A program made the position numbers and the translations under genes. DNA of 60,533 nucleotides. Source: a virus. Where the stretch lies: positions 1 to 60,533 of IMG/VR virus record IMGVR_UViG_3300009130_001666; one strand, given 5' to 3'. Shown here piece by piece: positions 43,697-60,454 of the stretch. Each line of letters begins with the position of its first letter. The stretch's first letter is position 1. The notes beneath the pieces were generated by a model. The model saw only the letters and a list, made by a program, of their open reading frames with translations. It did no database searches and was not told the origin of the DNA.

Positions 43697-45077
43697 AAAC
43701 TTTGCCCGTTTCGGGAAGACATTTCAAGAGAACCTCTCCAGACTGATCATGGATGATCGTGCCTTCTCCGATCAGATCCTGGAGGTCCTCGACGTTAACT
43801 TTTTTGAGCAGAAGTATCTGCAGGTCTTTAATAAACTTATTATCGACTATAAAGAAAAGTATAGCGTTCATCCAACTCGCACAATCCTGGAAACAGTGTT
43901 GCGCACCAGTCTGGACGAAGAGAATGAACTGATTCAAAAGCAGGTTAGGGATTTCTTTGTTCGTTCATCGACAGCAGTGGACGATGTTACCGATGTTGAC
44001 TACATCAAAGAGCACTCTCTAGATTTCTGCAAAAAACAGAAACTCAAAGAAGCAATGTTGTCCTGCACTGACCTTCTCAAGAGTTGCAAGTTCGAAGAGA
44101 TTAAAAGTAAACTCGATACTGCGATGAATCTCGGCATAGACAACGACTTTGGTCACGAGTATATCAAGGACTTCGAAGAACGATTCAAGATTAGACACCG
44201 CGCTGAAGTGACGACAGGTTGGGACGAAATTGACAAGATCACTGATGGTGGTCTTGGAAAAGGAGAACTTGGTGTCGTTATCGCTCCAACGGGTGCCGGT
44301 AAATCTATGGCACTGGTTCATCTTGGGGCACAGGCAGTCAAGAAAGGTCTCCACGTGGTTCACTATACTCTCGAACTCGCGCAGACCGTTGTCGGTAACA
44401 GATATGATGCCTGTTTGACCAAAAATGCCCTCGGTGCGCTTCATGGACTAAAAGATGAAATTTATGAAGAAATTAAAGATCTTTCTGGCGGTCTGATAAT
44501 TAAAGAATATCCGACCAAAACCGCATCTACCAACACGATCAAGAATCACTTAGAGAAGATGCGCAAAAGAGGGATACCCATCGACATGATCATCGTTGAT
44601 TATGGAGATCTGCTGAGACCGGTATCCGTTCAGAAAGAAAAGAGGAACGAGTTGGAATCAATTTATGAAGAGATGAGAGGACTTGCTCAGGAATATGAGT
44701 GCCCCATCTGGACAGCATCCCAGACAAATAGAACTGGGTACAATGCCGATTGCATCAGTCTCGACGCAATTAGCGAAGCGTTTAGCAAATGCTTTGTTGC
44801 CGACTTCATTTGCACAATTTCACGCAATACAGAACAAAAAGAAAGCAAAACGGGTAAAATGCTCGTAGCAAAAAACAGAAATGGCATCGATGGACTCGTC
44901 TATCCGATGTATATCGATACAAGCAGAATTGATATGCAAGTACTGCCATACCAGGGTGATACGCCATCTTCTGTCGTTGTTACCACGGCAAAGGAGCAAT
45001 TCAAGAAGGTGCAAGAACAATACAAAAACCACATGTCAAAGAAGAGAAACGGAGAAGGGAAAAATGCCAAAAATTGA
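43689..45077 (+). CDS. Replicative DNA helicase (gp41/DnaB-like)
   Basis: 462 residues from GTG 43689, chosen because GAGGG lies 8 bases upstream and the longer frame runs inside the exonuclease gene. Residues 1-165 are a helical N-terminal domain; residues 170-440 are the RecA-type motor with TGWDEIDKITDGGLGKGEL, Walker A APTGAGKS near 200, Walker B IDMIIVDYGDLLRP near 300, WTASQTNRTGYN near 345 and a final ISRNTEQKES...VAKNRNG segment. A hexameric 5'-3' unwinding enzyme of T4 gp41 type. It overlaps the exonuclease by 8 bases and the RNR gene by 14. Confidence 0.92.
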   Translation: MNENFARFGKTFQENLSRLIMDDRAFSDQILEVLDVNFFEQKYLQVFNKLIIDYKEKYSVHPTRTILETVLRTSLDEENELIQKQVRDFFVRSSTAVDDVTDVDYIKEHSLDFCKKQKLKEAMLSCTDLLKSCKFEEIKSKLDTAMNLGIDNDFGHEYIKDFEERFKIRHRAEVTTGWDEIDKITDGGLGKGELGVVIAPTGAGKSMALVHLGAQAVKKGLHVVHYTLELAQTVVGNRYDACLTKNALGALHGLKDEIYEEIKDLSGGLIIKEYPTKTASTNTIKNHLEKMRKRGIPIDMIIVDYGDLLRPVSVQKEKRNELESIYEEMRGLAQEYECPIWTASQTNRTGYNADCISLDAISEAFSKCFVADFICTISRNTEQKESKTGKMLVAKNRNGIDGLVYPMYIDTSRIDMQVLPYQGDTPSSVVVTTAKEQFKKVQEQYKNHMSKKRNGEGKNAKN

Positions 45078-47493
45078 AACAGTTACCAGGGAAACAAAGG
45101 AGTACTTTGAAGGAGACGAACTCGCAACCAACGTGTTCATCACAAAGTATGCCCTAAGAGACAAGGAAGGACAATTCCAGGAGGCAAGTCCGAACGACAT
45201 GCACGTTCGCCTCGCAGGTGAGTTTGCTCGTATCGAAGATAAGTTCGGCGGGAGCAAAATGTCCAAAGAAGAGATTTTCGAGAGCATAAAAGGATTTAAA
45301 AAGATTGTACCACAGGGTTCACCCATGTACGGTATTGGAAACAACTTCGTCAACGTCTCCTTGTCGAACTGTGTTGTTGTAGAGTCTCCAGGTGACAATA
45401 TTTCATCTATTGTGGATTCTGGCAAGGATTTGGCAAACCTTTTTAAACGTCGATGTGGTGTCGGATTAGATATCTCAGAACTGCGCCCCGAAGGTGCTGC
45501 AGTCAGCAACAGTGCCGGAACAACAACAGGTGCCTGGTCTTTTGCTGATTTCTATTCTTATGTATGTCGTATGGTTGGTCAGAATGGTCGCCGAGGTGCC
45601 CTGATGATCACAATGGACGTCCGCCATCCAGACATCGAGAAGTTTATCACAATGAAGCACGACTTGACCAAGGTTACAGGTGCAAATGTCTCAGTTAAAA
45701 TCAGCGATGACTTCATGCAAGCAGTTGAGAACGACGAGACATTCACTTTGACCTACCCTGTCGGTACTGCTAAACCAAAAATTACAAAAGAAGTTTGTGC
45801 ACTTGACGTCTGGGACAAAATTGTTGAATCTGCTACAACCACTGCAGAACCAGGCATCTTGATGTGGGACAATATCACTAAAAATCTACCTGCTCACGAC
45901 TATCCAGCATACAAGACCATTTGCACAAATCCCTGTGCAGAGATTCCTTTGTCTGCTTACGATAGTTGCCGCCTTATTTCTGTCAATTTGAAGAACTTCG
46001 TCGAGAATCCCTTCACCGACAAAGCATCTTTCAATTTTGACTCTTTTGGCGATACGGTGCGTCAAGCAATGCGTCTTTCTGACGATTTGGTGGAATTGGA
46101 AATTGAGAAGATTGAATCAATCATGAATTCCTGCGACACAAAGGACGAAAAGGCACTTTGGTTGAAACTTCGTGATGCTGCAGCAAATGGCCGCCGAACT
46201 GGTCTTGGAACTCACGGTCTTGCCGATGCCTTGGCATGTTTGCGACTCCGATATGACAGTGACGATGCGATTAAGGTCATCGACAAGATTTACGGCACCC
46301 TGAAGACAGAGGCATATCGAGAATCTTGCAACCTTGCCGCTGAGAGAGGTCCGTTCCCCCACTTTGATTGGGAGATTGAAAAAGACAATGCCTACATCAA
46401 AGCACTGCCCAAAGAGATTCGGGATTTAATCAAAAAGCATGGTCGCAGAAACATTTCAATTCTGACCAATGCCCCGACTGGTTCCGTATCCATCATGAGT
46501 CAAACAAGTTCAGGTTTAGAACCAGTGTTCCGCAACTTTTACGTCAGACGTCGTAAAATCAGTCACAATGACACTGAAACGAAAGTTGATTTCGTCGATG
46601 AGATCGGAGACAAGTGGCAGGAATATAAAGTGTTCCACCACAATGTTCAAGACTGGCGAGAAGAGAATGATTTCCACACAGGAGAAATGTCCGACGAAAT
46701 CCCAGACTTTTTTGTAGAGTCAGACCAGATCGACTGGTTGCGTCGTGTGGAAATTCAAGAAACAATTCAGAGACACATTGATCATGCGATTTCCTCAACA
46801 ATCAACCTTCCCGCAGGCACCAAACCAGAGGTTGTCGGCGAACTTTACAAAGAAGGTTGGAAACGAGGTCTTAAAGGTATCACAGTGTATGTGGATGGTT
46901 CCAGAACCGGCGTCCTCGTCACAGAGACGCAAAAAGAGGAAGAGGGCTTCATTCAGCGTGATGCTGCCCCTCGTCCAGAACTGGTTGAATGTGAAATTCA
47001 CCGCACAACCATCAAGGGAGAGAAGTGGGTCGTGCTGGTCGGCCTTGTCGAAGGCAAACCATACGAACTTTTTGCAGGTCTTTCTTCTAAAATTACCTTG
47101 CCAAACAAGTATACTCATGGTATAATTGTAAAGCACCCAAGAAAGACAACCAGATCAATTTACGATTTGGTATTGGGCGAAGGTGACGATCAGTTGGTTA
47201 TCAGCGATATTATCAATATCTTTGACAACCCAAACAATGCGATTATGACTCGTATGATCTCACTTTCTCTGCGACACGGTGCAAACGTCAAGTTTGTCGT
47301 CGAGCAGATGCAGAAGGATCAAGACACCGACTTCACATCCTTTAACAAGGTGTTGTCTCGGGTCTTGAAGAAGTATATTCCTGATGGGGAGAAAGCATCG
47401 GATAAAACCTGCCCAAGTTGCAGTGCCGAAGGTCTCATCTACCAGGATGGTTGTGTAACATGCACTCAGTGCGGATATGCTAAATGTGGATAA
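45064..47493 (+). CDS. nrdJ: Ribonucleotide reductase, class II (B12-dependent)
   Basis: 809 residues from ATG 45064 after GGAGAAGGGA. Catalytic motifs are NCVVVES, RCGVGLDISELRP, NPCAEIPLS (radical Cys and Glu) and TNAPTGSVSIM. The C-terminal tail has the swinging cysteines CPSC and CTQCGYAKCG. There is no small subunit gene, as expected for a single-chain adenosylcobalamin-dependent enzyme. It makes deoxynucleotides for phage DNA synthesis without oxygen dependence. The helicase overlap suggests translational coupling. Residues about 615-730 also show a TSCPD-like domain (EFFIN-type EIHRTTIKGEKWVVLVGL, LFAGLSSKI) often fused to NrdJ. Confidence 0.93.
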   Translation: MPKIETVTRETKEYFEGDELATNVFITKYALRDKEGQFQEASPNDMHVRLAGEFARIEDKFGGSKMSKEEIFESIKGFKKIVPQGSPMYGIGNNFVNVSLSNCVVVESPGDNISSIVDSGKDLANLFKRRCGVGLDISELRPEGAAVSNSAGTTTGAWSFADFYSYVCRMVGQNGRRGALMITMDVRHPDIEKFITMKHDLTKVTGANVSVKISDDFMQAVENDETFTLTYPVGTAKPKITKEVCALDVWDKIVESATTTAEPGILMWDNITKNLPAHDYPAYKTICTNPCAEIPLSAYDSCRLISVNLKNFVENPFTDKASFNFDSFGDTVRQAMRLSDDLVELEIEKIESIMNSCDTKDEKALWLKLRDAAANGRRTGLGTHGLADALACLRLRYDSDDAIKVIDKIYGTLKTEAYRESCNLAAERGPFPHFDWEIEKDNAYIKALPKEIRDLIKKHGRRNISILTNAPTGSVSIMSQTSSGLEPVFRNFYVRRRKISHNDTETKVDFVDEIGDKWQEYKVFHHNVQDWREENDFHTGEMSDEIPDFFVESDQIDWLRRVEIQETIQRHIDHAISSTINLPAGTKPEVVGELYKEGWKRGLKGITVYVDGSRTGVLVTETQKEEEGFIQRDAAPRPELVECEIHRTTIKGEKWVVLVGLVEGKPYELFAGLSSKITLPNKYTHGIIVKHPRKTTRSIYDLVLGEGDDQLVISDIINIFDNPNNAIMTRMISLSLRHGANVKFVVEQMQKDQDTDFTSFNKVLSRVLKKYIPDGEKASDKTCPSCSAEGLIYQDGCVTCTQCGYAKCG
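47098..47126 (+). promoter_or_regulatory. Possible internal sigma70-type promoter inside nrdJ
   Basis: TTGCCA (47098-47103), 17-base spacer, TATAAT (47121-47126). It would direct transcription into the small genes from 47503. Because it lies in coding sequence, chance is possible. Confidence 0.35.
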
Positions 47494-47502
47494 GGAGAAA
47501 AC

Positions 47503-47775
47503 ATGAAATTAGCAGTTGATAACACTCAAAACGAAGACCAAAAAGTAAGCAAAGAAGAACGCATTGTTGACTACATCAAGTCTATTGCAGCGATTGAAGA
47601 GGCAATTGAACCTTTTAAAGAGCAAAAGAAGGCACTGAAGACCAACTACGTAGAGAACGGTTGGTTGGATAAAGAAGAGATCAAGTTGGCAATGAAAGCG
47701 TACAAGATGCTTAAAGATGATGTCGACCTTGATCAGTTGACCGACTTCTATGAAACTGTTGGAGGTAGTCTATAA
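47503..47775 (+). CDS. Small coiled-coil protein (GapR-like architecture)
   Basis: 90 residues. A disordered N-terminus is followed by a helical core (RIVDYIKSIAAIEEAIEPFKEQKKALKTNYVENGWLDKEEIK split by a turn, then an AYKMLK.DVDLDQLTDFYE helix). The pattern of a coiled coil followed by a G/DxK turn and a short helix recalls GapR/DUF2312 proteins, which bind overtwisted DNA, but the match is loose. RBS AAGGAG; it shares its last base with the start of the next gene. Confidence 0.65.
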   Translation: MKLAVDNTQNEDQKVSKEERIVDYIKSIAAIEEAIEPFKEQKKALKTNYVENGWLDKEEIKLAMKAYKMLKDDVDLDQLTDFYETVGGSL

Positions 47776-48047
47776 TGAACGTGCTTCCAAAGAATAGGCA
47801 TATTCTTATTGAACCACTTGCGGAAGAAGAGCAGGATAAACCAACTGTTCTTCTTCCAGCAGATTATCAGAAGAAACAAGAGTATGTCGTAGCAAAAGTT
47901 CTCAACGTGCACGATTCCGTAAAAGAGGAGATCCAAGAAGGGTCTCTCGTCGTTGCAGAACCAAATATGGTGCGGGAGATTACCCTTGAGGGTCAAACTC
48001 ACTACTTACTGCAAGCAAACTACGTGCTTTGCGAAGTGAGACTCTAG
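47775..48047 (+). CDS. GroES/gp31-like co-chaperonin
   Basis: 90 residues, as for GroES (97) and T4 gp31 (111). It begins with the GroES-type MNVLPKNRHILIEPL, has a mobile-loop position (DKPTVLLPADYQKK) in place of the bacterial GGIVL loop, then VAKVLNVHD, LVVAEP and a final YLLQANYVLCEV strand. It would cap the host GroEL to fold a phage protein, in T4 the major capsid protein gp23. It is translationally coupled to the preceding gene (TATAATG overlap at 47775). Confidence 0.8.
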   Translation: MNVLPKNRHILIEPLAEEEQDKPTVLLPADYQKKQEYVVAKVLNVHDSVKEEIQEGSLVVAEPNMVREITLEGQTHYLLQANYVLCEVRL

Positions 48048-48115: not shown

Positions 48116-48328
48116 ATGTCAAGACACTTAAGAAGAATAATTCGAGTCGTCATTACCCCGTTCCTGCTCTTTGTCCTGCCAGCATCTGCACTTGTTGCCA
48201 CGGTGTGTGTTCCAGGAGTTTCAGAGTGGTTGTACGAATTAATAAAACAGTCAACAATGATTTCGCAGGACATTGTGGCATCTTTTTTTAAAATAATGAC
48301 CTCAGTCATTTGCGCTCTTACTATTTAG
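48116..48328 (+). CDS. Possible small membrane protein
   Basis: 70 residues from ATG 48116 (a longer frame from TTG 48029 exists). One or two hydrophobic segments are visible (VVITPFLLFVLPASALVATV near residues 10-30, and IVASFFKIMTSVICALTI at the end). No Shine-Dalgarno precedes the ATG, and the stop lies inside the hairpin at 48315-48334. This might be a lysis-inhibition or holin-like protein, but the sequence alone cannot say, and the frame may be fortuitous. Confidence 0.3.
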   Translation: MSRHLRRIIRVVITPFLLFVLPASALVATVCVPGVSEWLYELIKQSTMISQDIVASFFKIMTSVICALTI

Positions 48329-48334
48329 TAAGAG
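48315..48334 (+). promoter_or_regulatory. Perfect hairpin overlapping the methyltransferase RBS
   Basis: CTCTTACT (48315-48322), loop ATTT, AGTAAGAG (48327-48334). The 3' arm contains the beginning of the AGAGAGG ribosome binding site of the gene starting at 48343, and the centre contains CTATTTAG. It could control translation or be a promoter dyad. Confidence 0.55.
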
Positions 48335-48342
48335 AGGTTTTT

Positions 48343-48954
48343 ATGTCAGAAAATAAAAAGAGAAGAATTACTAAAAAGTTTATTGAAGCACAGTTAGATG
48401 AACTGTACTCTCATGAGTTGGTGAACCTCGCGTCTGCCCTTGGTAGAGAATCCACCTATGGCGAAGTGCTGAGATATTCTGCTGATTATATGATAGAACT
48501 CTTTTCTAGGAAACTCTCTAAAAGTTCTGTATTTTATGACCTCGGCAGCGGCATGGGCAAACTTGCGTCCCACGTCGCGCTGAAGTCCAAAGCAAAGAGG
48601 GTGGTGGGAATCGAACTGGACAAGAAGAGGCACAAAGAGTCGCTTGACTTGGCGTCCAAGATTGATTTCCCAGCAACACAACCTGAATTCATCAATGATG
48701 ATATATTTGATACTGACTTCTCTGATGCCACAATCGTCTATTTTGACAACACTTCGTACCCAGATGGTTCTTTGGAGAAAATTATAGAACTTCTTCCAAA
48801 AGGGTGTCTCTTGATATACAAGCAGGGTGGTGCCCATATTGGTGATCGGTTTTTTCGACTGGACACAACTTATGGCAATCCGAACGCTACAGAACACGTG
48901 GAGAGTACCCTTGCTAGGTTCTGGTTAATGCATGCTTCGTATCGGTATGTTTAG
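48343..48954 (+). CDS. SAM-dependent methyltransferase, DOT1-like fold
   Basis: 203 residues from ATG 48343, preferred over 48310 because AGAGAGG lies 5 bases upstream. The SAM-binding motif is VFYDLGSGMGKLASHVAL near residues 62-80, followed by RVVGIELDKKRHKESL, an acidic second-strand region INDDIFDTDFSDATIVYFDNTSY and a late LLPKGCLLIYKQGG strand. DLGSGxGK with GIE and YFDN (in place of NPPY) resembles the DOT1-like protein lysine methyltransferase family. The substrate is unknown. The N-terminal 40 residues (basic, helical) may bind the target. Confidence 0.7.
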   Translation: MSENKKRRITKKFIEAQLDELYSHELVNLASALGRESTYGEVLRYSADYMIELFSRKLSKSSVFYDLGSGMGKLASHVALKSKAKRVVGIELDKKRHKESLDLASKIDFPATQPEFINDDIFDTDFSDATIVYFDNTSYPDGSLEKIIELLPKGCLLIYKQGGAHIGDRFFRLDTTYGNPNATEHVESTLARFWLMHASYRYV

Positions 48955-48961
48955 GTGATAT

Positions 48962-49819
48962 TTGCGCGGATGTAGGTTAAAATACAAAGACATTGTTGTG
49001 GGGGGCAGTTTAGAGGCACTTTCTTACGCCTATTCCAAAGGGTACCCTGTGGTCGGAATAAAGCAAAGACCGCATTTTTTCCTCGATAAACACCGCTCTG
49101 AATGGGACAGTTTGTCTTTTTTCTTGTCTCTCTCTGGTCAATTGCCAATTGCCAAGGGTTTGACGTCAATTCGTATCCTGGAAGACGAGAAACTTATCAA
49201 ATGCTTCACCGAAAACTCAAGAATGATTGAGATCGAATATGAGAAAATTCACCTTGTAGATGATCACGGCGTTGGTGGATTGCCCTTGCCGACAATTGAG
49301 GCAAAAAAAGAATATCTCGTATTCGACTGGTTGAAGGTTGTTCGAGGCGGAAAGCATGCCTATGATTATATTCTGGATGAGGACAGTGACGACTTCGTTA
49401 AAAAGGTTGTATTTTACTCAGGAATCGGATACAGGAAGCAGCACAAGAATGCCTGTGCCGTGTCCGTGCTGACAGAGTACAAATTGAAGTCACTAGACTA
49501 CTCAGAGACCTACACTCTTCTCAAGGTTCGACAGATGATGACAGACGCAGGACTGAAAGGGAACAGAAACGGAACACAGGCATACAATGGCAAACCTGCC
49601 TATCAGTCGCTCAAGGTGGAGTTCTCTCAGCGAGACAAAGTGCCCCTTCATCGAAATCAATACGCAAATACGAAAACAATTAAATTCATAAAGGATATAG
49701 ACCTTAAAAAAGATGAAAAATTGCCTTATAATGAGTTATTAGAGGTTGTTTTCGGGAGTCCATATGAAAGAGGAAAATCTAGAACAAGTAAGGATGTTGA
49801 AGGAGAAAAGAAAGTCTAA
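48962..49819 (+). CDS. Unrecognised protein with Rossmann-like N-terminus
   Basis: 285 residues from TTG 48962; the start is uncertain because no ATG occurs before the conserved-looking part. The beginning (YKDIVVGGSLEALSYAYSKGYPVVGI) looks like a dinucleotide- or nucleotide-sugar-binding strand-loop-helix with GGS. Other parts, such as KEYLVFDWLKVVRGG, VVFYSGIGYRK and QSLKVEFSQRDKVPLHRNQ, are not assignable. The 3' end overlaps the next gene by 56 bases, which suggests co-translation with that gene. Function not recognised. Confidence 0.6.
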   Translation: MRGCRLKYKDIVVGGSLEALSYAYSKGYPVVGIKQRPHFFLDKHRSEWDSLSFFLSLSGQLPIAKGLTSIRILEDEKLIKCFTENSRMIEIEYEKIHLVDDHGVGGLPLPTIEAKKEYLVFDWLKVVRGGKHAYDYILDEDSDDFVKKVVFYSGIGYRKQHKNACAVSVLTEYKLKSLDYSETYTLLKVRQMMTDAGLKGNRNGTQAYNGKPAYQSLKVEFSQRDKVPLHRNQYANTKTIKFIKDIDLKKDEKLPYNELLEVVFGSPYERGKSRTSKDVEGEKKV

Positions 49820-50660
49820 GAGAGGCAAGTATGCCGTCGGAGACTTTCACATGTCCGGCATAGTCCCAGTAACGGGAGAGATCCTGGACTTCAACATGCC
49901 TTGGCACGACTCCTTAACTCCAATTGCGCAGAATTACCTTGCAATCGAACATGCCGTTTACGAGTGTGCATGTGCGGGTGCAAATACCATCTGGGTCGTC
50001 TGCAAGGAGGGTACAACACCTCTCCTTCGACACCGCCTTGGGGACTGGTTGTATGATCCTGTTGAGGTTGACAGCATCTCAAAGAACCCTCGGTCAAAGA
50101 TAAAGGACAACATCAGAAGGATTCCAATCTATTATGTAAAATTGAAACCAGTGGACTTCCAGCGACGAGAAAGTCTTGGATGGAGCGTGCTTACTGGTGC
50201 GATCAATTCGTTCCGCATGTCCTATCGTGTTAGCAAGTGGTTGATTCCAGATAAGTACTATGTCTCTTTCCCATACGGCATATACCCCATGAAGGATGTG
50301 AGACTATCTAGGAATCTGTTTAGAAGCAGCAACCCTTATGTGCTAACCTACGATGGCAAGTCTGTTGCTGACGGTCTTTACACAGGGTTCACTTTTGACC
50401 GTGACGTATTTGTATATGCACGGCGAGAAATAAGAAAATATAAAACAACACTTGACGAAGTTTTTAAATCTGTTAAACTAGACAAACCGAAAGAGATCGA
50501 ACTAGACTGGTATTATCCAATTGACTCATGGGACAATTACAAGGAATACCTTTCTTCAGAACACTCAGTGAGTAGAAATGGGAATGTGGCAAATGGCATC
50601 ACGGTCTTCCAAAAAGAAGAATACAAAAGAGAATACACCGGTATTGGCAGAGAGACTTGA
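49764..50660 (+). CDS. Unrecognised protein, possible nucleotidyltransferase-like N-terminus
   Basis: 298 residues from ATG 49764 (GGGAG at 49753-49757). Residues 25-100 (GIVPVTGEILDFNMPWHDSL, AIEHAVYECACAGANTIWVVC, LLRHRLGDWLYDP) recall nucleotidyltransferases, in which a G-x-G-rich start and a 'AGAxxIxVVxxxG' strand bind nucleotide, but the usual GGxGTRL is absent. Later segments (FPYGIYPMKDVRLSRNLFR, ADGLYTGFTFDRDVF) are unfamiliar. It is encoded between an unknown protein and another unknown protein, each with overlaps. Confidence 0.6.
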   Translation: MKEENLEQVRMLKEKRKSKRGKYAVGDFHMSGIVPVTGEILDFNMPWHDSLTPIAQNYLAIEHAVYECACAGANTIWVVCKEGTTPLLRHRLGDWLYDPVEVDSISKNPRSKIKDNIRRIPIYYVKLKPVDFQRRESLGWSVLTGAINSFRMSYRVSKWLIPDKYYVSFPYGIYPMKDVRLSRNLFRSSNPYVLTYDGKSVADGLYTGFTFDRDVFVYARREIRKYKTTLDEVFKSVKLDKPKEIELDWYYPIDSWDNYKEYLSSEHSVSRNGNVANGITVFQKEEYKREYTGIGRET

Positions 50661-50913
50661 ACATATAATTCCAGGAATGTTCTCTCTTTCCGCAGGCGAC
50701 CTCGTTGTTGTTTCTAACGGCAACTACTTCCGCCGCGATACGCCCAAGCTTGGCATTGTGCTGGAGGACGCCCCAAAGGGGTTTACGTTCGCCAAGATCC
50801 ATTATGACGGAGAGACAGAAATGTTACTCTCCTGCAATTTCCACAGAATCGAAGAGTGGAAGAGAATCACAGCGGCAAAGAAGGTGAACCTTGACAAAGC
50901 GAACATTGTTTAG
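50593..50913 (+). CDS. Small unrecognised protein
   Basis: 106 residues from ATG 50593 (also possible: 50578). A basic N-terminus (RSSKKKNTKEN) precedes a compact beta-rich part (SLSAGDLVVVSNGNYFRRD, PKLGIVLEDAPKGFTFAKIHYDG, CNFHRIEEW), which looks like a small barrel, for example SH3- or KOW-like. It overlaps both neighbours (68 and 23 bases). Function unknown. Confidence 0.6.
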   Translation: MASRSSKKKNTKENTPVLAERLEHIIPGMFSLSAGDLVVVSNGNYFRRDTPKLGIVLEDAPKGFTFAKIHYDGETEMLLSCNFHRIEEWKRITAAKKVNLDKANIV

Positions 50914-51469
50914 TGCCTCCTTTGCCACTACGGTCACTTTTTCCACTTTGCTGATTGCCTCCTTTCTGAATAACGAGAGCGCATCTAGGAATCCGCCAAA
51001 GCACTCGACGCCGATTGTTTTAAAGACGGCAAAGGAGCAGCCGAAGGTAAAGAAGCGGGTAAAAAGAAAACAGAAAAAACTTAAAAACATCAAGCAGGCA
51101 CCACGAGTGTCGCCCAATTTCGCCATAACGATGGACATCCCCCTGGAGATGCCACAGGTTCAGGACATGCACGCAGAACTCATAGAGCAGGCAGTGGAGG
51201 TTGTGCCTCCCGCACCAAAGGCAGACAACCCTGCCCCAGAATACCCACGTGCTGCTCGCTCAGATGGCATCCAAGGGCGCGTCGTCGCTATGGCACGTGT
51301 TGATGAATATGGTTTCGTGATCCGAACCAAGATTCTCTCATCAGATCCTCCTGGGGTCTTTGATGCTGCAGTCACTTCCGCTCTTCGTAATTGGAAGTTC
51401 TCTCCGGCAACGATGCGAGGACACCCAATTGAGCAGTGGGTCGAAATTCCTTTTAATTTTGTAATGTAA
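50891..51469 (+). CDS. TonB-like periplasm-spanning protein
   Basis: 192 residues from TTG 50891, 23 bases inside the preceding gene. Layout as in TonB: a single membrane anchor at residues about 7-25 (FSASFATTVTFSTLLIASF); a basic then Pro-rich spacer (VKKRVKRKQKKLK; VVPPAPKADNPAPEYP); and a TonB C-terminal domain at about 117-192 (YPRAARSDGIQGRVVAMARV, GFVIRTKIL, FDAAVTSALRNWKF, ATMRGHPIEQWVEIPF). The anchor lacks the Ser/His pair that E. coli TonB needs to couple to ExbB/ExbD. No exbB or exbD genes are nearby. Effect could be helping or blocking host outer-membrane uptake. Confidence 0.8.
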   Translation: MTKRTLFSASFATTVTFSTLLIASFLNNESASRNPPKHSTPIVLKTAKEQPKVKKRVKRKQKKLKNIKQAPRVSPNFAITMDIPLEMPQVQDMHAELIEQAVEVVPPAPKADNPAPEYPRAARSDGIQGRVVAMARVDEYGFVIRTKILSSDPPGVFDAAVTSALRNWKFSPATMRGHPIEQWVEIPFNFVM

Positions 51470-51472
51470 CAC

Positions 51473-51501
51473 TTGACTTGATCCCGTCTTCATGTTATAA
51501 T
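51473..51501 (+). promoter_or_regulatory. Sigma70-type promoter for the DnaE gene
   Basis: TTGACT (51473-51478), 17-base spacer, TATAAT (51496-51501). The spacer begins with TGATCCCGT, shared with the promoter at 40660. GTCTTCA (51486-51492) and TGAAGAC (51501-51507) form a dyad that brackets the -10 element. Confidence 0.88.
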
Positions 51502-51532
51502 GAAGACTGTTAATTTTCAGAAAGAGGTTTGA

Positions 51533-54500
51533 ATGATGGATAGATTGTCTCCAAAAGTAAAGTATGTTGGTCTTCACGCACACAGCGTCGCAGGTTCTCC
51601 CTTTGATGCCCTTGGTTATCCCCAAGAGCACATGGACTCCGCCTACAATAATGGCATGGACGCCCTTGCCTTGACCGACCACGGTAACATGAACGGTCTC
51701 GCTTATCAGGTTCTTCATGCCAAGAAGATGCAGGAAGCAGGCAAAGACTTCAAACCGATCTATGGTTGCGAAGCATATTTTGTTCCAAGTTTGCAAGAAT
51801 GGCACGAAGAAAAGAACGCCGCCGAACTAGATAAGAAGAAGGCAAAAAAAGATGCGGAGGCATCGGGGACAACAGTTGAAGATGAAGAGGCTAGCAAAAG
51901 TGCTGTTAAAGATATTCTTTCTCGTCGTAGTCATCTTGTTCTTATTGCCGCTAATCAGACAGGACTAAAAAACCTCTTTACAATGATCTCCAAGTCTTAT
52001 ACTCCGGAGAACTTCTATCGCTACCCTCGCCTCGACTTCGACACTCTCGAAGCACACAAAGAGGGAATTATTGTTTCCAGTGCTTGCATGGGCGGCGTAT
52101 TCGCCAGTGATTACTGGAAAAACCGTGAACAGGGTGAGGAGGCAGTCATCGAGGCGATGACCAAGACCGCAACCCGTTTTAAAGAAATCTTTGGTGACAA
52201 CTTTTATGGAGAGGTGCAATGGAATGCCATTCCCGACCAGCACGCCATTAACAAGTTCGTCATCAAGGTATGTGGGGAGTTAGGCATCCAACTCGTATCC
52301 ACATCGGACAGTCATTATCCCGACAAGGATTCTTGGAAAGACCGGGAACTTTACAAGAAACTTGGTTGGCTGTCCAAGGGGGGACTCGAAGACGCAACTC
52401 TCCCCGACTCTATCGACGCGACTCGCTGCGAACTCTATCCAAAGAATGGTGATGAGATGGTCGAAGCAATTCGCAAATACACTAAGTCAGAGAACTGGAT
52501 CTATCGAGAGAACGACAAACCCCTGTTTCCAAGGGGTGTAGAATATGATGAGAAACTTCTCATCGAAAGTGTAGAAAGAACACACCAGATCGCCCATGAG
52601 AAGATTGATTCGTTCTTTCCAGATAATACTGTTCGACTTCCCGACTTTGTTGTCCCTGCGTCTCACACAGCGGACGAAGCACTCTGGTCTTACGCAATTG
52701 ACGGTCTCCGAAGTCGAGGTTTGACTGGTCGCAAGAATTACGAGAAGCGACTCGAAAAAGAGTTCGATGTCATCTCCTCCCGTGGTTTTAGTAAATACTT
52801 CCTGACAATGAAGGCGATCTCCGACAAGGCACAAGAGGTGCAACTCGTCGGTGCTGGTCGAGGTTCCGCTGCAGGTTCCCTCGTTGCCTTCTGTCTCAAC
52901 ATCACTCAGATTGACCCCATCAAGTACAATCTCCAGTTCGAGAGATTCCTTCGTAAAGATGCTGTTGATTATCCCGATATCGATTACGATGTCGCCGACC
53001 CGATGGAACTCAAGGATTTGTTGATTGACGAGTGGGGCGACAATGTGGTTGTCCCGATTTCGAACTGGAACACGCTGCAATTGCGCTCTCTCATCAAGGA
53101 TATTTCCAAGTTCTACAAGATTGACTTCTCTGAGGTCAACAAGGTCACAAGTCGCATGCTCGCAGAGGCAACACCTCGTGCAAAGGCAGCGAACAACATC
53201 TCCGCTGGTGTGTATACTCCGACATTCGAAGAACTAATTGAGTATTCAGACAGTCTTCGTGGGTTCCTTGTAAAGTACCCCCACATCAAGACGCACATCT
53301 TGAAACTGTACGGTTCAGTTCGTTCGTGCTCTCGCCATGCCGGTGGTGTGCTTGTCGGTGAGAATCTTGATCAATACATGCCCCTCATCGCTTCCGGTGG
53401 TGTACGGCAGACTCCTTGGTCTGAAGGCATGAACGTCCGTCATCTTGAACCGATGGGTTTCATTAAGTTTGATATTCTCGGATTGGCATCCCTTCGCATG
53501 ATCGAAGGTGCAATTCGCCACATCCTCAAGCGGAAAGAGGGCGTCGAGAACCCAACCTTCGAAGATGTGAAGACATACTACGACAAACACCTCGATCCCA
53601 ATGTCATCGACTTCGAAGACCAAGATGTCTGGGAAAGCGTGTTTCATGATGGCAAGTGGGCAGGTGTCTTCCAGTTCACCCAGCACGGTGCACAGAAGTT
53701 CTGCAAGGACGCAAAACCTCGCAGTCTCGTTGACCTCGCCGCCATTACTGCCATCTTCCGCCCAGGCCCTTTGTCTGCAAAGGTCCACGATCTGTATGTC
53801 GCGGCAAAGTCAAACCCAGATGAGGTTGAATACATCCATCCAATCGTTCGGGACTGTCTCGAAGAAACTTATGGGTTTATCGTCTTTCAGGAGCAATTGG
53901 CGTTGCTGGCACACAAGTTGGGTCGACGTGTCTCCCTGGACGAGGGCAACATGCTTCGTAAACTTCTCACAAAGAAGGGCACTGGCAAGGGTGCCAAGGA
54001 CCTCGAACGAATCCGGAAAAAGTTCATGGCCGGGTGTGAGGACAAGGGAATCCGCATGGAAGATGCCGATGACCTCTGGAAGAAGATGGAATTCTTCTCC
54101 GGGTACGGTTTCAACGCTTCTCATGCCATCTCTTACGCAACACTATCCTTCCAGTGTGCATGGTTGCTCCGCTACCATCAGACAGAGTGGATGGCAGCAT
54201 TCCTCGACAAAGAACCTGAAGGTCGCAAAGAGGCAGCAATCAACATTGCAAAGAGTCTCGGATACAGTATCCAGTCTCTCAATGTGAATACTTCCGGAAA
54301 GGTTTGGGAGTTCGATGACGACGGAACAACCCTGATTCAACCGCTGACTTCGGTCAAGGGTCTTGGTGACTCCGCTATTGATCAGATCTTCGCAGGTCGA
54401 CCGTTCAATACGGTTGAGGACTTTCTCTTTAATGAGGAGATGGTTTATAGTAAATTAAACAAGAAGGCACTTGACGTGCTCGTTCGTTCTCATGCTCTGA

Positions 54501-55000
54501 ATTGTCTCAAGGATGATCGCTTCTCAGGCGACAAACACTTCTGGACTGCAGTGGCAGTTGATCGCCCTCGCAAAGAGAAAGATCTTCACGAGAACATCGA
54601 GAGATATCAACCTGAAGGAGATTTTTCCAAGGAGGAGAAGATTGAAAACCTCACGAACCTAACGGGAGTGTTCCCAATGCACCTCGTGGTCAGCGATGAG
54701 ATCACTTCTCAACTCCACGATCTCGGTGTCCCTCCGATCTCTGACTTTGATCCGATGCTCGGTGCTGCCTGGTTCATCCCTCGCAAGGTCACTGCTCGTC
54801 AAACAAAGAATGGCAAGACCTATTGGGTCGTCGAGGTCATCGATGAGAATAACGTGATCAGTCACATTAAGTGCTGGGGCGTCCGACCGGGCAAAGACCA
54901 CATTAACCTTAATCGTGCTTATATGGCACGCCTTGACCACAGTGAACAGTGGGGTTTCTCCACTCGGAGCATCTCAAGGTTTTTTAGAATGTTGGGGTAA
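51533..55000 (+). CDS. dnaE: DNA polymerase III alpha subunit (DnaE-type)
   Basis: 1155 residues, the length of bacterial DnaE. The PHP domain has its metal ligands (HAHSVAGSP, LTDHGNMNG, GCEAYFVP, SDSHYPD), unlike E. coli where several are lost, so a proofreading-type site may be active. The catalytic core has GAGRGSAAGSLVAF, PDIDYD (two Asp), KFDILGL (third Asp), TAIFRPGPLS and GYGFNASHA. A C-terminal HhH/OB region follows (VKGLGDSAIDQI; TARQTKNGKTYWVVEV). It carries a residue run with extra charged helix near 100-125. Probably the phage replicase. AGAGG lies before the ATG at 51533. Confidence 0.95.
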   Translation: MMDRLSPKVKYVGLHAHSVAGSPFDALGYPQEHMDSAYNNGMDALALTDHGNMNGLAYQVLHAKKMQEAGKDFKPIYGCEAYFVPSLQEWHEEKNAAELDKKKAKKDAEASGTTVEDEEASKSAVKDILSRRSHLVLIAANQTGLKNLFTMISKSYTPENFYRYPRLDFDTLEAHKEGIIVSSACMGGVFASDYWKNREQGEEAVIEAMTKTATRFKEIFGDNFYGEVQWNAIPDQHAINKFVIKVCGELGIQLVSTSDSHYPDKDSWKDRELYKKLGWLSKGGLEDATLPDSIDATRCELYPKNGDEMVEAIRKYTKSENWIYRENDKPLFPRGVEYDEKLLIESVERTHQIAHEKIDSFFPDNTVRLPDFVVPASHTADEALWSYAIDGLRSRGLTGRKNYEKRLEKEFDVISSRGFSKYFLTMKAISDKAQEVQLVGAGRGSAAGSLVAFCLNITQIDPIKYNLQFERFLRKDAVDYPDIDYDVADPMELKDLLIDEWGDNVVVPISNWNTLQLRSLIKDISKFYKIDFSEVNKVTSRMLAEATPRAKAANNISAGVYTPTFEELIEYSDSLRGFLVKYPHIKTHILKLYGSVRSCSRHAGGVLVGENLDQYMPLIASGGVRQTPWSEGMNVRHLEPMGFIKFDILGLASLRMIEGAIRHILKRKEGVENPTFEDVKTYYDKHLDPNVIDFEDQDVWESVFHDGKWAGVFQFTQHGAQKFCKDAKPRSLVDLAAITAIFRPGPLSAKVHDLYVAAKSNPDEVEYIHPIVRDCLEETYGFIVFQEQLALLAHKLGRRVSLDEGNMLRKLLTKKGTGKGAKDLERIRKKFMAGCEDKGIRMEDADDLWKKMEFFSGYGFNASHAISYATLSFQCAWLLRYHQTEWMAAFLDKEPEGRKEAAINIAKSLGYSIQSLNVNTSGKVWEFDDDGTTLIQPLTSVKGLGDSAIDQIFAGRPFNTVEDFLFNEEMVYSKLNKKALDVLVRSHALNCLKDDRFSGDKHFWTAVAVDRPRKEKDLHENIERYQPEGDFSKEEKIENLTNLTGVFPMHLVVSDEITSQLHDLGVPPISDFDPMLGAAWFIPRKVTARQTKNGKTYWVVEVIDENNVISHIKCWGVRPGKDHINLNRAYMARLDHSEQWGFSTRSISRFFRMLG

Positions 55001-56377: not shown

Positions 56378-56646
56378 TGGTCCGGAAATTAAAGAACAAG
56401 AAGACTCACAAGCAGACCCAAAAAGACTATAAACAAAAGTTGGGATTGTTTGACAAGTTGCCCGAAGAGTGCCTCGCTTGCTTGGAACCCTTTGATCGGC
56501 AAAACAAAGAACAGGTTATGACGTGGAACGTGGTGGTGCGGAACGAAAAGGAAGAAGTCCGACTGTATTGTCCAGAGTGCTGGTCAAAAGCACAACAAGT
56601 TGTAAAAGACTTTGAACAGCGTATCAAGGAAAGGGAGCAACCATGA
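56377..56646 (+). CDS. Small zinc-finger-like protein
   Basis: 89 residues from ATG 56377 (GTG 56374 also possible). CLAC near residue 36 and CPEC near residue 67 suggest a zinc ribbon, preceded by a very basic segment (KNKKTHKQTQKDYKQK) and followed by an acidic helix. The start overlaps the methylase stop; the end overlaps the IMPDH start by 4 bases. Could bind nucleic acid. Not recognised further. Confidence 0.65.
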   Translation: MVRKLKNKKTHKQTQKDYKQKLGLFDKLPEECLACLEPFDRQNKEQVMTWNVVVRNEKEEVRLYCPECWSKAQQVVKDFEQRIKEREQP

Positions 56647-57665
56647 GAAAGGTCCTATCATACGACGACGTACTTTTGGTACCAAAATATTCGGACATCA
56701 CCAGTCGGTCGGAGGTTGATATCACCACGGACCTTGATAAGGTCATCACCCTCGATCTTCCTATCATCGGTGCCCCAATGGACACCGTGGTCGGTACCAC
56801 AATGGCAACCGCACTGAGTCACATGGGCACGTTCGGCGTCTTGCATCGATACTGCACAATTGACGAACAGTCTGCAATGGTCGAAGAGGTTGTTGCAAAC
56901 TCTCTCGGTGAGCACCCTGTCGCTGCAGCAATCGGTGCAACGGGAGATTTCCTTGAGCGAGCAATGGAGCTACACGGCGCAGGAGCAGAGATATTTTGCA
57001 TTGATGTGGCACATGGTCATCACTCTTTTGTAAAGCGTGCAATCGGTGTGCTACGTGGCAAGTTCGGCAGCGATATCCACATCATGGCAGGCAACGTTGC
57101 AACCGCAGAAGCATTTGAAGATATTTCAAACTGGGGTGCAGACAGTATTCGTGTCGGCGTAGGCGGTGGTGCTGCATGCAGTACGAGAACACGCACTGGT
57201 CACGGACTTCCCGTTCTGGATTCTATCATCCAGTGCGCAGAGTCAGATGCCAGTGCTTTGTTGATCGCAGACGGTGGCATCCGAAACAGCGGCGACATCG
57301 TAAAGGCAATTGCCGCAGGTGCCGATCTTGTGATGGTCGGTTCCCTCTTGGCAGGCACTGATGAGGCACCAGGTGTGGTTATCACTGACGAACGTTCGGG
57401 CAAGAAAGTGAAAGTCTATCGAGGCATGGCATCCGGCGATGCACAGACCTCATGGCGAAACAAGGTTTCCGTTGTCGAGGGTGTGTCGACCACTGTGCCA
57501 TACAAAGGAAGCGTCGTCGACGTGATGGAGAACCTTGTCGGCGGGTTGCGTAGCGGTCTATCTTACAGCGGTTGTCAGAATCTCAATCAGTTGCGCTTGA
57601 CTGCAACATTCGTGAACCAGACATCTGCAGGACTTGCCGAGAGCAAACCACACATCTTGGGTTAA
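56643..57665 (+). CDS. guaB: IMP dehydrogenase/GMP reductase family enzyme, CBS-less
   Basis: 340 residues. [15 protein letters not shown] and [14 protein letters not shown] open the barrel; the nucleotide-binding loop with catalytic Cys is [38 protein letters not shown] binds phosphate; [10 protein letters not shown] marks the flap; and the C-terminus ([33 protein letters not shown]) is more like IMP dehydrogenase than GMP reductase. The regulatory CBS pair found in bacterial GuaB (about 490 residues) is missing, so the enzyme may escape nucleotide feedback. It likely raises guanine nucleotide supply during infection. GMP reductase remains an alternative. Confidence 0.85.
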
Positions 57666-59274: not shown

Positions 59275-59700
59275 ATGAGCACAACAGTTTTATTTTTGAT
59301 CACTTTGGGAAGTTTCTTTTTCGGAATGCTGTTCCAACGAACAATGGAAGCGTTACGAATTATCTTCGGTCTGCGCAATCGCCCCCTGTTCGTGGTTGAG
59401 AACGAGATTCTTCTTTTCATGTTCACCGTATACTCCCGCTTAATCACCTCACTTGAAACCGGATACATAACGATGCGTGCTGCCGGAGTTAGCGAGGAAA
59501 CAATAAAAAGAATTAAGAATGAAGACGACCACGACCTCCAGACTTGGAAAAAAGAGGTCATGGCCAAGTTCGTCGATTCGTATCCCCCGGTTTATAAAGC
59601 ATACCTGAATGTTAAAACCTGGCAAGAGGCATCAGATCAGTTGATGCTATACAAACAATTCAGGAGAGAAGTAAATGAAAACACTAATAGAAATAATTAA
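59275..59700 (+). CDS. Small membrane protein of unknown function
   Basis: 141 residues. Residues about 5-22 (VLFLITLGSFFFGMLFQ) form a clear transmembrane segment, and about 42-58 (ENEILLFMFTVYSRLI) is partly hydrophobic. The rest is a soluble, helical tail (WKKEVMAKFVDSYPPVYKAY). Position upstream of the amidase and overlap by 26 bases suggest a lysis-related role such as holin or spanin partner, but no signature proves it. AAGGAG precedes the ATG. Confidence 0.6.
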   Translation: MSTTVLFLITLGSFFFGMLFQRTMEALRIIFGLRNRPLFVVENEILLFMFTVYSRLITSLETGYITMRAAGVSEETIKRIKNEDDHDLQTWKKEVMAKFVDSYPPVYKAYLNVKTWQEASDQLMLYKQFRREVNENTNRNN

Positions 59701-60454
59701 CATAATCCTTTCTCTTTTAAAACCAAAGAGAGAAAAGGTCCTGCAACCAAGCAACGAGGCAAAACCAGTCGAACCAGCACCGGAACCTGTTGCAAAACCC
59801 ACTCCGCCAAAGAAAAAGATCGTCTGCAACGACGTCGATGTGGAAATTGACTGGGACAAGGTAACAATATGGACAGAACCCGGTGCCCTGATGTGCAAGT
59901 CAGATCAATACAAGGCAGTTAAGGGCGACCGAAAGCAGAATATCGACAAGATTGTTGTCCACTGGGACGGATGCCTCAGTTCGGAGCAATGTGCAAAAGT
60001 GCTCGGTCAACGAGGACTCTCAGCACACTTTTGTATCAACAATGACGGCACCATCCACCAGTTAATGGACACAAACCATGTTGGTTGGCATGCTCGCGGC
60101 GTAAACACAAAGAGCATCGGCATCGAGATCAGCAATGCGGTTTATATGAAATATGCAAAGAAATACGACCCAAGAAGACCGGTCATCCCGGCAATGAAGT
60201 TGCATGGAAAGACCTTCCCTCAGCACCTCGGTTTCTATGATGTGCAGGTCGAGGCACTCAAACAACTAATAAAATCGCTTACAAAATTCTATAATGTGCC
60301 TTTAGAGTTCCCAAATGCCAATGGTGAACTAATTAAAGGAGTAATCAAGGCAAGTTCCTTCAAGGGTGTCATCTGTCACTACCACGTGACAGAGAACAAG
60401 ACAGACCCTGCATGCTTGGACCTGGCAAAAGTTATCGAGGAGATAAAAGAATGA
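59675..60454 (+). CDS. N-acetylmuramoyl-L-alanine amidase (endolysin)
   Basis: 259 residues. The N-terminus has a short hydrophobic helix (TLIEIINIILSLL) followed by a Pro/Lys-rich linker, perhaps a membrane-tethering or signal-arrest segment. The catalytic amidase_2 domain spans about 85-255: zinc-ligand motif IVVHWDG near residue 95, AHFCINNDGTIHQL, VGWHARGVNTKSIGIEISNA, and the second zinc site CHYHVTENKTDPACLD near 234. It cuts the amide bond between muramic acid and the peptide in the cell wall. RBS AGGAG at 59662-59666, overlapping the membrane protein. Confidence 0.88.
   Translation: MKTLIEIINIILSLLKPKREKVLQPSNEAKPVEPAPEPVAKPTPPKKKIVCNDVDVEIDWDKVTIWTEPGALMCKSDQYKAVKGDRKQNIDKIVVHWDGCLSSEQCAKVLGQRGLSAHFCINNDGTIHQLMDTNHVGWHARGVNTKSIGIEISNAVYMKYAKKYDPRRPVIPAMKLHGKTFPQHLGFYDVQVEALKQLIKSLTKFYNVPLEFPNANGELIKGVIKASSFKGVICHYHVTENKTDPACLDLAKVIEEIKE

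Follow-up and report, generated by a model that had tools for sequence, protein, structure and literature searches.

The window analysed here, a linear 60.5-kb virus fragment (IMG/VR record IMGVR_UViG_3300009130_001666), carries a genuine, intact and complete-looking TonB gene at positions 50891..51469 on the + strand. The phage is uncultured and belongs to a lytic-type lineage of T4-like marine myoviruses whose polymerase is of the DnaE type. Stand-alone TonB_C domains are already known from phages, and what is new is that a marine myovirus of lytic type has a TonB that is full-length and anchored. The best explanation, which has about an even chance of being correct, would be that an intact TonB was taken up by the phage lineage and docks on the host ExbBD, shifting TonB-dependent uptake. 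This raises the testable question of whether a virus can connect to the Ton motor of its host, and whether it would do so for feeding itself or for shutting doors on rivals.

Integrity, domain and fold of the phage TonB

The TonB frame is uninterrupted over 192 codons from a TTG start, and a Shine-Dalgarno-like AAGGTG can be read 4 nt upstream of the TTG (50881..50886, +). In the profile searches, the check that had been proposed in the original prediction, the 192-aa protein matched TonB_C (PF03544) with 65 bits (E 8.6e-18; cut-off 24.6) and TIGR01352 with 54.7 bits (cut-off 27.1). Residues 114-191 (51230..51463, +), identified as the TonB C-terminal domain by profile match, AlphaFold2 and Foldseek, align to positions 1-78 of the 79 in the PF03544 model, and the strongly conserved TonB_C positions are present. 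The best matches in a PDB sequence search were the TonB C-terminal domains 6i97, 6fip, 2k9k and 1u07. The AlphaFold2 model had block-mean pLDDT values of 94-98 for residues 111-192. Its confidence was low ahead of residue 101, and it is uninformative on the anchor. The top 17 Foldseek matches of this model were all TonB-family domains; the TonB of FoxA-TonB (6i97) gave a target TM of 0.85, and BtuB-TonB (2gsk) and FhuA-TonB (2grx) were also matched. A chance domain match was ruled out by the two profile scores above their cut-offs together with the Foldseek matches to TonB.

The sole hydrophobic stretch, found by hydropathy, comprises the 21 residues 6-26 (LFSASFATTVTFSTLLIASFL; 50906..50968, +) and is preceded by the N-terminal MTKR. 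Judged from its sequence, the N-terminus reads as an inner-membrane anchor; alternatively, it could be a cleavable signal peptide, with SAS at residues 30-32. The spacer, residues 33-113 (81 residues), contains 13 Lys and 11 Pro, and its periplasmic stretch at residues 48-113 (51032..51229, +) is Lys/Pro-rich by composition. The spacer had been described as Pro-rich; it is indeed present, but Lys/Pro-rich is the better description. The strand IVLKT at residues 42-46 (51014..51028, +), flanked by Pro41 and Pro51, could possibly be D-box-like according to the published description of the ExbD-binding D-box of E. coli TonB (PMC10907165), being placed where the D-box lies in that protein and resembling it by eye only. 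Hydropathy, composition, PF03544/TIGR01352 and fold all agree with the full TonB plan of anchor, spacer and C-terminal domain that had been proposed.

The missing histidine

The membrane segment at residues 6-26 is without His, as had been noticed in the original prediction, and none occurs anywhere in residues 1-33, so that the Ser-x3-His of the canonical SHLS-type TonB is absent. The further claim that the protein lacks the proton-coupling residues was not borne out, since the TonBs of some bacterial exbB-exbD-tonB operons are naturally His-less too. When the whole phage protein was searched against 369 gammaproteobacterial genomes, TonBs of a 210-235 aa class gave the alignments that were both best and longest (query 22-188, 13-189, 15-187 and 10-188), and the full-length bacterial relatives were collinear with the phage TonB. 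At five readable loci the operon order was exbB-like, exbB, exbD, tonB and a long TPR-like gene (genes named by eye), an arrangement already described for TonB2 of Vibrio, where the system includes TtpC and a TPR protein, TtpD (PMC6957404).

Membrane segments were compared in a hand-chosen set of 11 TonB2-like, 14 other-class and five Vibrio-type TonB2 sequences. The core membrane His was absent in all 11 TonBs of the exbB-like/exbB/exbD/tonB/TPR class. A signature, [GVI][TSPV]-x10-Asn, was present in 11/11 of this TonB2-like class, in 0/14 of the other class, most of whose members have the His, and in 0/5 of the Vibrio-type segments; the phage version is VT-x10-N at residues 15-27. Phage residues 1-112 scored 18.5 bits against the profile of the TonB2-like class, a value reached by none of 2000 shuffles (best 16.0), and 4.7 bits against the His-type profile, a value reached by 1506 of the 2000. 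The full-length protein, however, scored higher with the His-type profile (99 bits) than with the TonB2-like profile (88 bits), and in a tree of the C-terminal domain (95 columns, bootstrap unsettled) the phage protein, on a long branch, fell closer to the His class and not within the TonB2-like clade. The anchor is thus TonB2-like and the receptor-binding domain not clearly so, and with this long branch the tree singles out neither a partner type nor a donor.

In a cryo-EM structure, Ser16 and His20 of E. coli TonB are among the residues in contact with ExbB, and the His has been called essential (PMC12215075); according to the title of Swayne and Postle (2011; cited in PMC6957404), a non-protonatable Asn fully replaces His20. 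Given the His-less TonB2-like class and this report, the missing His marks a type, and loss of function does not follow from it. The idea that the protein is dead since His is missing was rejected on the basis of the His-less bacterial class, the shared signature and the Asn-for-His20 report. The missing His does not show that the protein is dead, and the absence of His20 must not be equated with the absence of coupling.

Genome context and history of the locus

The record contains T4-like head, sheath, tube and baseplate genes, encodes a DnaB-like helicase, a UvsX-like recombinase, a ribonucleotide reductase and a DnaE-type polymerase, and also has dUTPase, sigma region 4 and amidase genes. 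Within the 60.5 kb no tRNA, sought as a host clue, was found. The TonB gene is the last of a gene group ahead of dnaE in the replication block, and the DnaE-type DNA polymerase III alpha gene (51533..55000, +), recognized by profile matches and comparison, served as the synteny anchor. A small upstream ORF (50578..50913, +), called with a mechanical start and with same-site homologues in relatives, overlaps the TonB start; its true start is probably further in, near 50679. Between the TonB stop and dnaE, a near-perfect sigma70-like promoter, TTGACT-17-TATAAT, can be read at 51473..51501 (+).

Five relatives (L002-L006), with DnaE protein identities of 93, 90, 80, 80 and 78%, have the same 285-aa and 304-aa genes upstream of dnaE as the window, and remnants in relatives were placed by pairwise alignment. 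A spacer motif of the phage TonB, QKKLKNIKQAPRVSPN (51071..51118, +), is retained by sequence comparison in the remnants of L003 and L004/L005. In L003 the motif (KQELKDIKQAPNVSPN) is fused to a window-like end, -FVM-stop, which is the junction that a deletion between AATTTCG and AATTTTG would leave. Only the in-frame CCATTTAATTTCGTAATGTAA (PFNFVM-stop) and the promoter remain in L002, and a 51-aa ORF ending in KQKLKDIKQAPRISPNNSVDK remains in L004/L005. The pN/pS of the spacer motif was 0.13-0.22 in 3/3 pairs, which, with the tiny sample of 16 codons, would suggest that the protein was under selection while the lineages diverged. In L006 and L164/L165/L169 only the small upstream ORF lies at the site, and in relatives farther removed no gap is left between the 304-aa gene and dnaE, the two being adjacent or overlapping.

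TonB_C was found in none of 74 related viral records (49 + 25), several of them longer than 145 kb, and TonB is therefore dispensable. No close homologues were found by a pattern scan in viral or genome contigs or by an alignment-based scan in viral contigs. The simplest history would be one acquisition in the ancestor of a small clade followed by at least three separate losses, and TonB looks like an accessory gene that was repeatedly lost. The reverse order, in which a short exported peptide came first and TonB_C was gained later, is less parsimonious, as the in-frame tail retained in L002, PFNFVM-stop, resembles that of the window. An assembly chimera was ruled out by the synteny on both sides and the same-site remnants in four relatives.

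Several other features of the region were recorded. In L164 (6824-7277) the small upstream ORF occurs as two adjacent, related-looking copies, and the site before dnaE is thus variable. The -10 box of the dnaE promoter lies inside an 8-bp inverted repeat at 51486-51507 (GTCTTCAT..ATGAAGAC). The pairing of this repeat is maintained through base changes in L002 (GTCTTTAT..ATAAAGAC) and L003, and the repeat may serve as an operator or form a leader hairpin. The gene pair at 48962-49819 and 49746-50660, without Pfam/PHROG match, is conserved ahead of dnaE throughout the lineage. A methyltransferase gene lies at 48310-48954 (DOT1 Pfam match of 38 bits, above the cut-off), with similar-looking genes in the same place in L002 and L003, and an IMP dehydrogenase/GMP reductase-like gene lies at 56643-57665.

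Comparison with known systems

The phage protein shares with the TonB2-like transducers of TtpC-ExbB2-ExbD2-TonB2-TtpD operons a short cytoplasmic tail, a His-less signature segment, a length of about 200-230 aa and a collinear spacer and TonB_C domain, but the phage copy stands alone, its spacer is somewhat shorter and its C-terminal domain lies outside their clade. With the canonical SHLS-type TonB of E. coli it has in common the TonB_C domain and fold and the anchor-spacer-domain plan, whereas it is without the Ser-x3-His pair and its spacer is shorter and Lys-rich. Among phages, TonB_C is annotated in Escherichia phages JLK-2012, 21, ev017 and Perceval and in Klebsiella phage ST13-OXA48phi12.4, the protein of the latter starting like a lipoprotein (LLGC). 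These lambdoid proteins are likewise stand-alone, with no exbBD annotated alongside at the two loci inspected, but they are only about 110-120 aa long, without the inner-membrane anchor and long spacer, and their genes lie close to lysis genes (two loci inspected) whereas the marine phage copy precedes dnaE. ExbB has been proposed as an auxiliary metabolic gene in Lentisphaerae phages (PMC11361711), which is also a phage-borne part of the Ton system and a proposed aid to nutrient uptake; it differs in being ExbB and not TonB, in chronic phages and in another host. A text search of the open-licence literature found no paper on a phage-encoded TonB.

Four matches named "Acinetobacter phage MD-2021a" were not counted as phage precedents, the one inspected appearing bacterial. 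This contig (CAKLQH020000024.1) has a tonB-tolQ-exbD operon beside an alkanesulfonate monooxygenase gene, and its phage label seems to have been given to bacterial DNA.

Possible function and alternatives

In a domain search, no ExbD, MotA/ExbB or Plug domains were found in the linear 60.5-kb record, while relatives reach 205 kb. The absence of exbB and exbD that had been noted therefore holds for the record, and the complete phage could carry them elsewhere; co-occurrence with a TonB-dependent receptor, proposed as a check, was not seen, there being no Plug domain in the record. The TonB2-like operon (exbB-like, exbB, exbD, TPR) is also absent around the phage gene, as would be expected for a phage copy. 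If the phage TonB works through host partners, it would be produced together with the replication genes and inserted and anchored in the host inner membrane, where its TonB2-like membrane segment would dock on the host ExbBD (or TtpC-ExbB2-ExbD2) motor. The C-terminal domain could then pull on host TonB-dependent receptors, and more iron or B12, whichever is scarce, would be taken up during infection, or its uptake would be redirected. That the gene is expressed, that its product docks on the motor and engages receptors, and that the phage gains from this are all steps that we infer. The evidence in favour comprises the TonB_C scores above the cut-offs, the receptor-bound TonB fold, the collinear TonB2-like relatives, the anchor score, the retention of both anchor and spacer, the low pN/pS of the 16-codon spacer motif and the NrdJ match described below. 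Against it stand the position of the C-terminal domain outside the TonB2-like clade, the lack of TonB_C in the 74 related records, the occurrence of NrdJ in relatives that have no TonB and the alternative signal-peptide reading of the N-terminus. Partnering with host ExbBD and receptor blocking had both been proposed; the former is the better reading, although such partnering would be nothing new in a host with a TonB2-like system, and the latter is possible, with nothing seen that favours it specifically.

It is possible, though not likely, that the protein is a receptor decoy, which would bind the TonB boxes of host receptors while being poorly energised, and so would shut uptake and exclude TonB-dependent competing phages and colicins. 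The intact C-terminal domain, modelled near receptor-bound structures, and the lack of exbBD in the record would fit such a role, and the signal-peptide reading (SAS at 30-32) would yield a soluble form; a free periplasmic TonB domain reportedly inhibits FhuA and FecA transport in published work. However, a missing His does not mean missing coupling, and a decoy needs the C-terminal domain only, yet this protein still has its anchor and spacer. Neither a receptor nor an exclusion partner for a decoy was found.

The gene may instead be a passenger, captured from a host, now without a role and heading for deletion, which is unlikely. Its occurrence as remnants in L002, L003, L004 and L005 and its absence elsewhere are in line with this, but the intact frame, the start signal, the strongly conserved TonB_C positions and the purifying pattern in the spacer motif among the lineages together point to a period of selection. 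A role in the envelope or in lysis, with TonB_C serving by chance in a spanin-like or wall-binding protein, is highly improbable. In its favour are a weak match (E 0.0088) to phrog_1267 "Rz-like spanin" and the lambdoid TonB_C proteins near holin, endolysin and Rz genes. The gene itself, however, precedes dnaE among the replication genes, with the amidase gene (59675-60454) 8 kb away, and phrog_1267 probably owes its spanin label, by a slip in naming, to the Rz genes neighbouring the lambdoid TonB-family proteins.

A possible link to B12 and NrdJ

B12 enters Gram-negative cells via TonB-dependent receptors. The record encodes NrdJ, an adenosylcobalamin (B12)-dependent ribonucleotide reductase of 870 aa (44881..47493, +), with a profile match of 484.8 bits (cut-off 399.95). 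A more specific form of docking on the host motor, which is quite unlikely, would be that the phage TonB speeds host B12 uptake through BtuB-like receptors and so feeds this reductase for the supply of DNA precursors. If true, the virus would rewire the outer-membrane energy system of its host. Of 25 relatives, all of them lacking TonB, 18 had an NrdJ match above the cut-off, and NrdJ is therefore not a specific TonB partner; iron uptake is as plausible as B12 uptake. Downstream of NrdJ lie a 90-aa ORF and then a GroES-like ORF (47775-48047).
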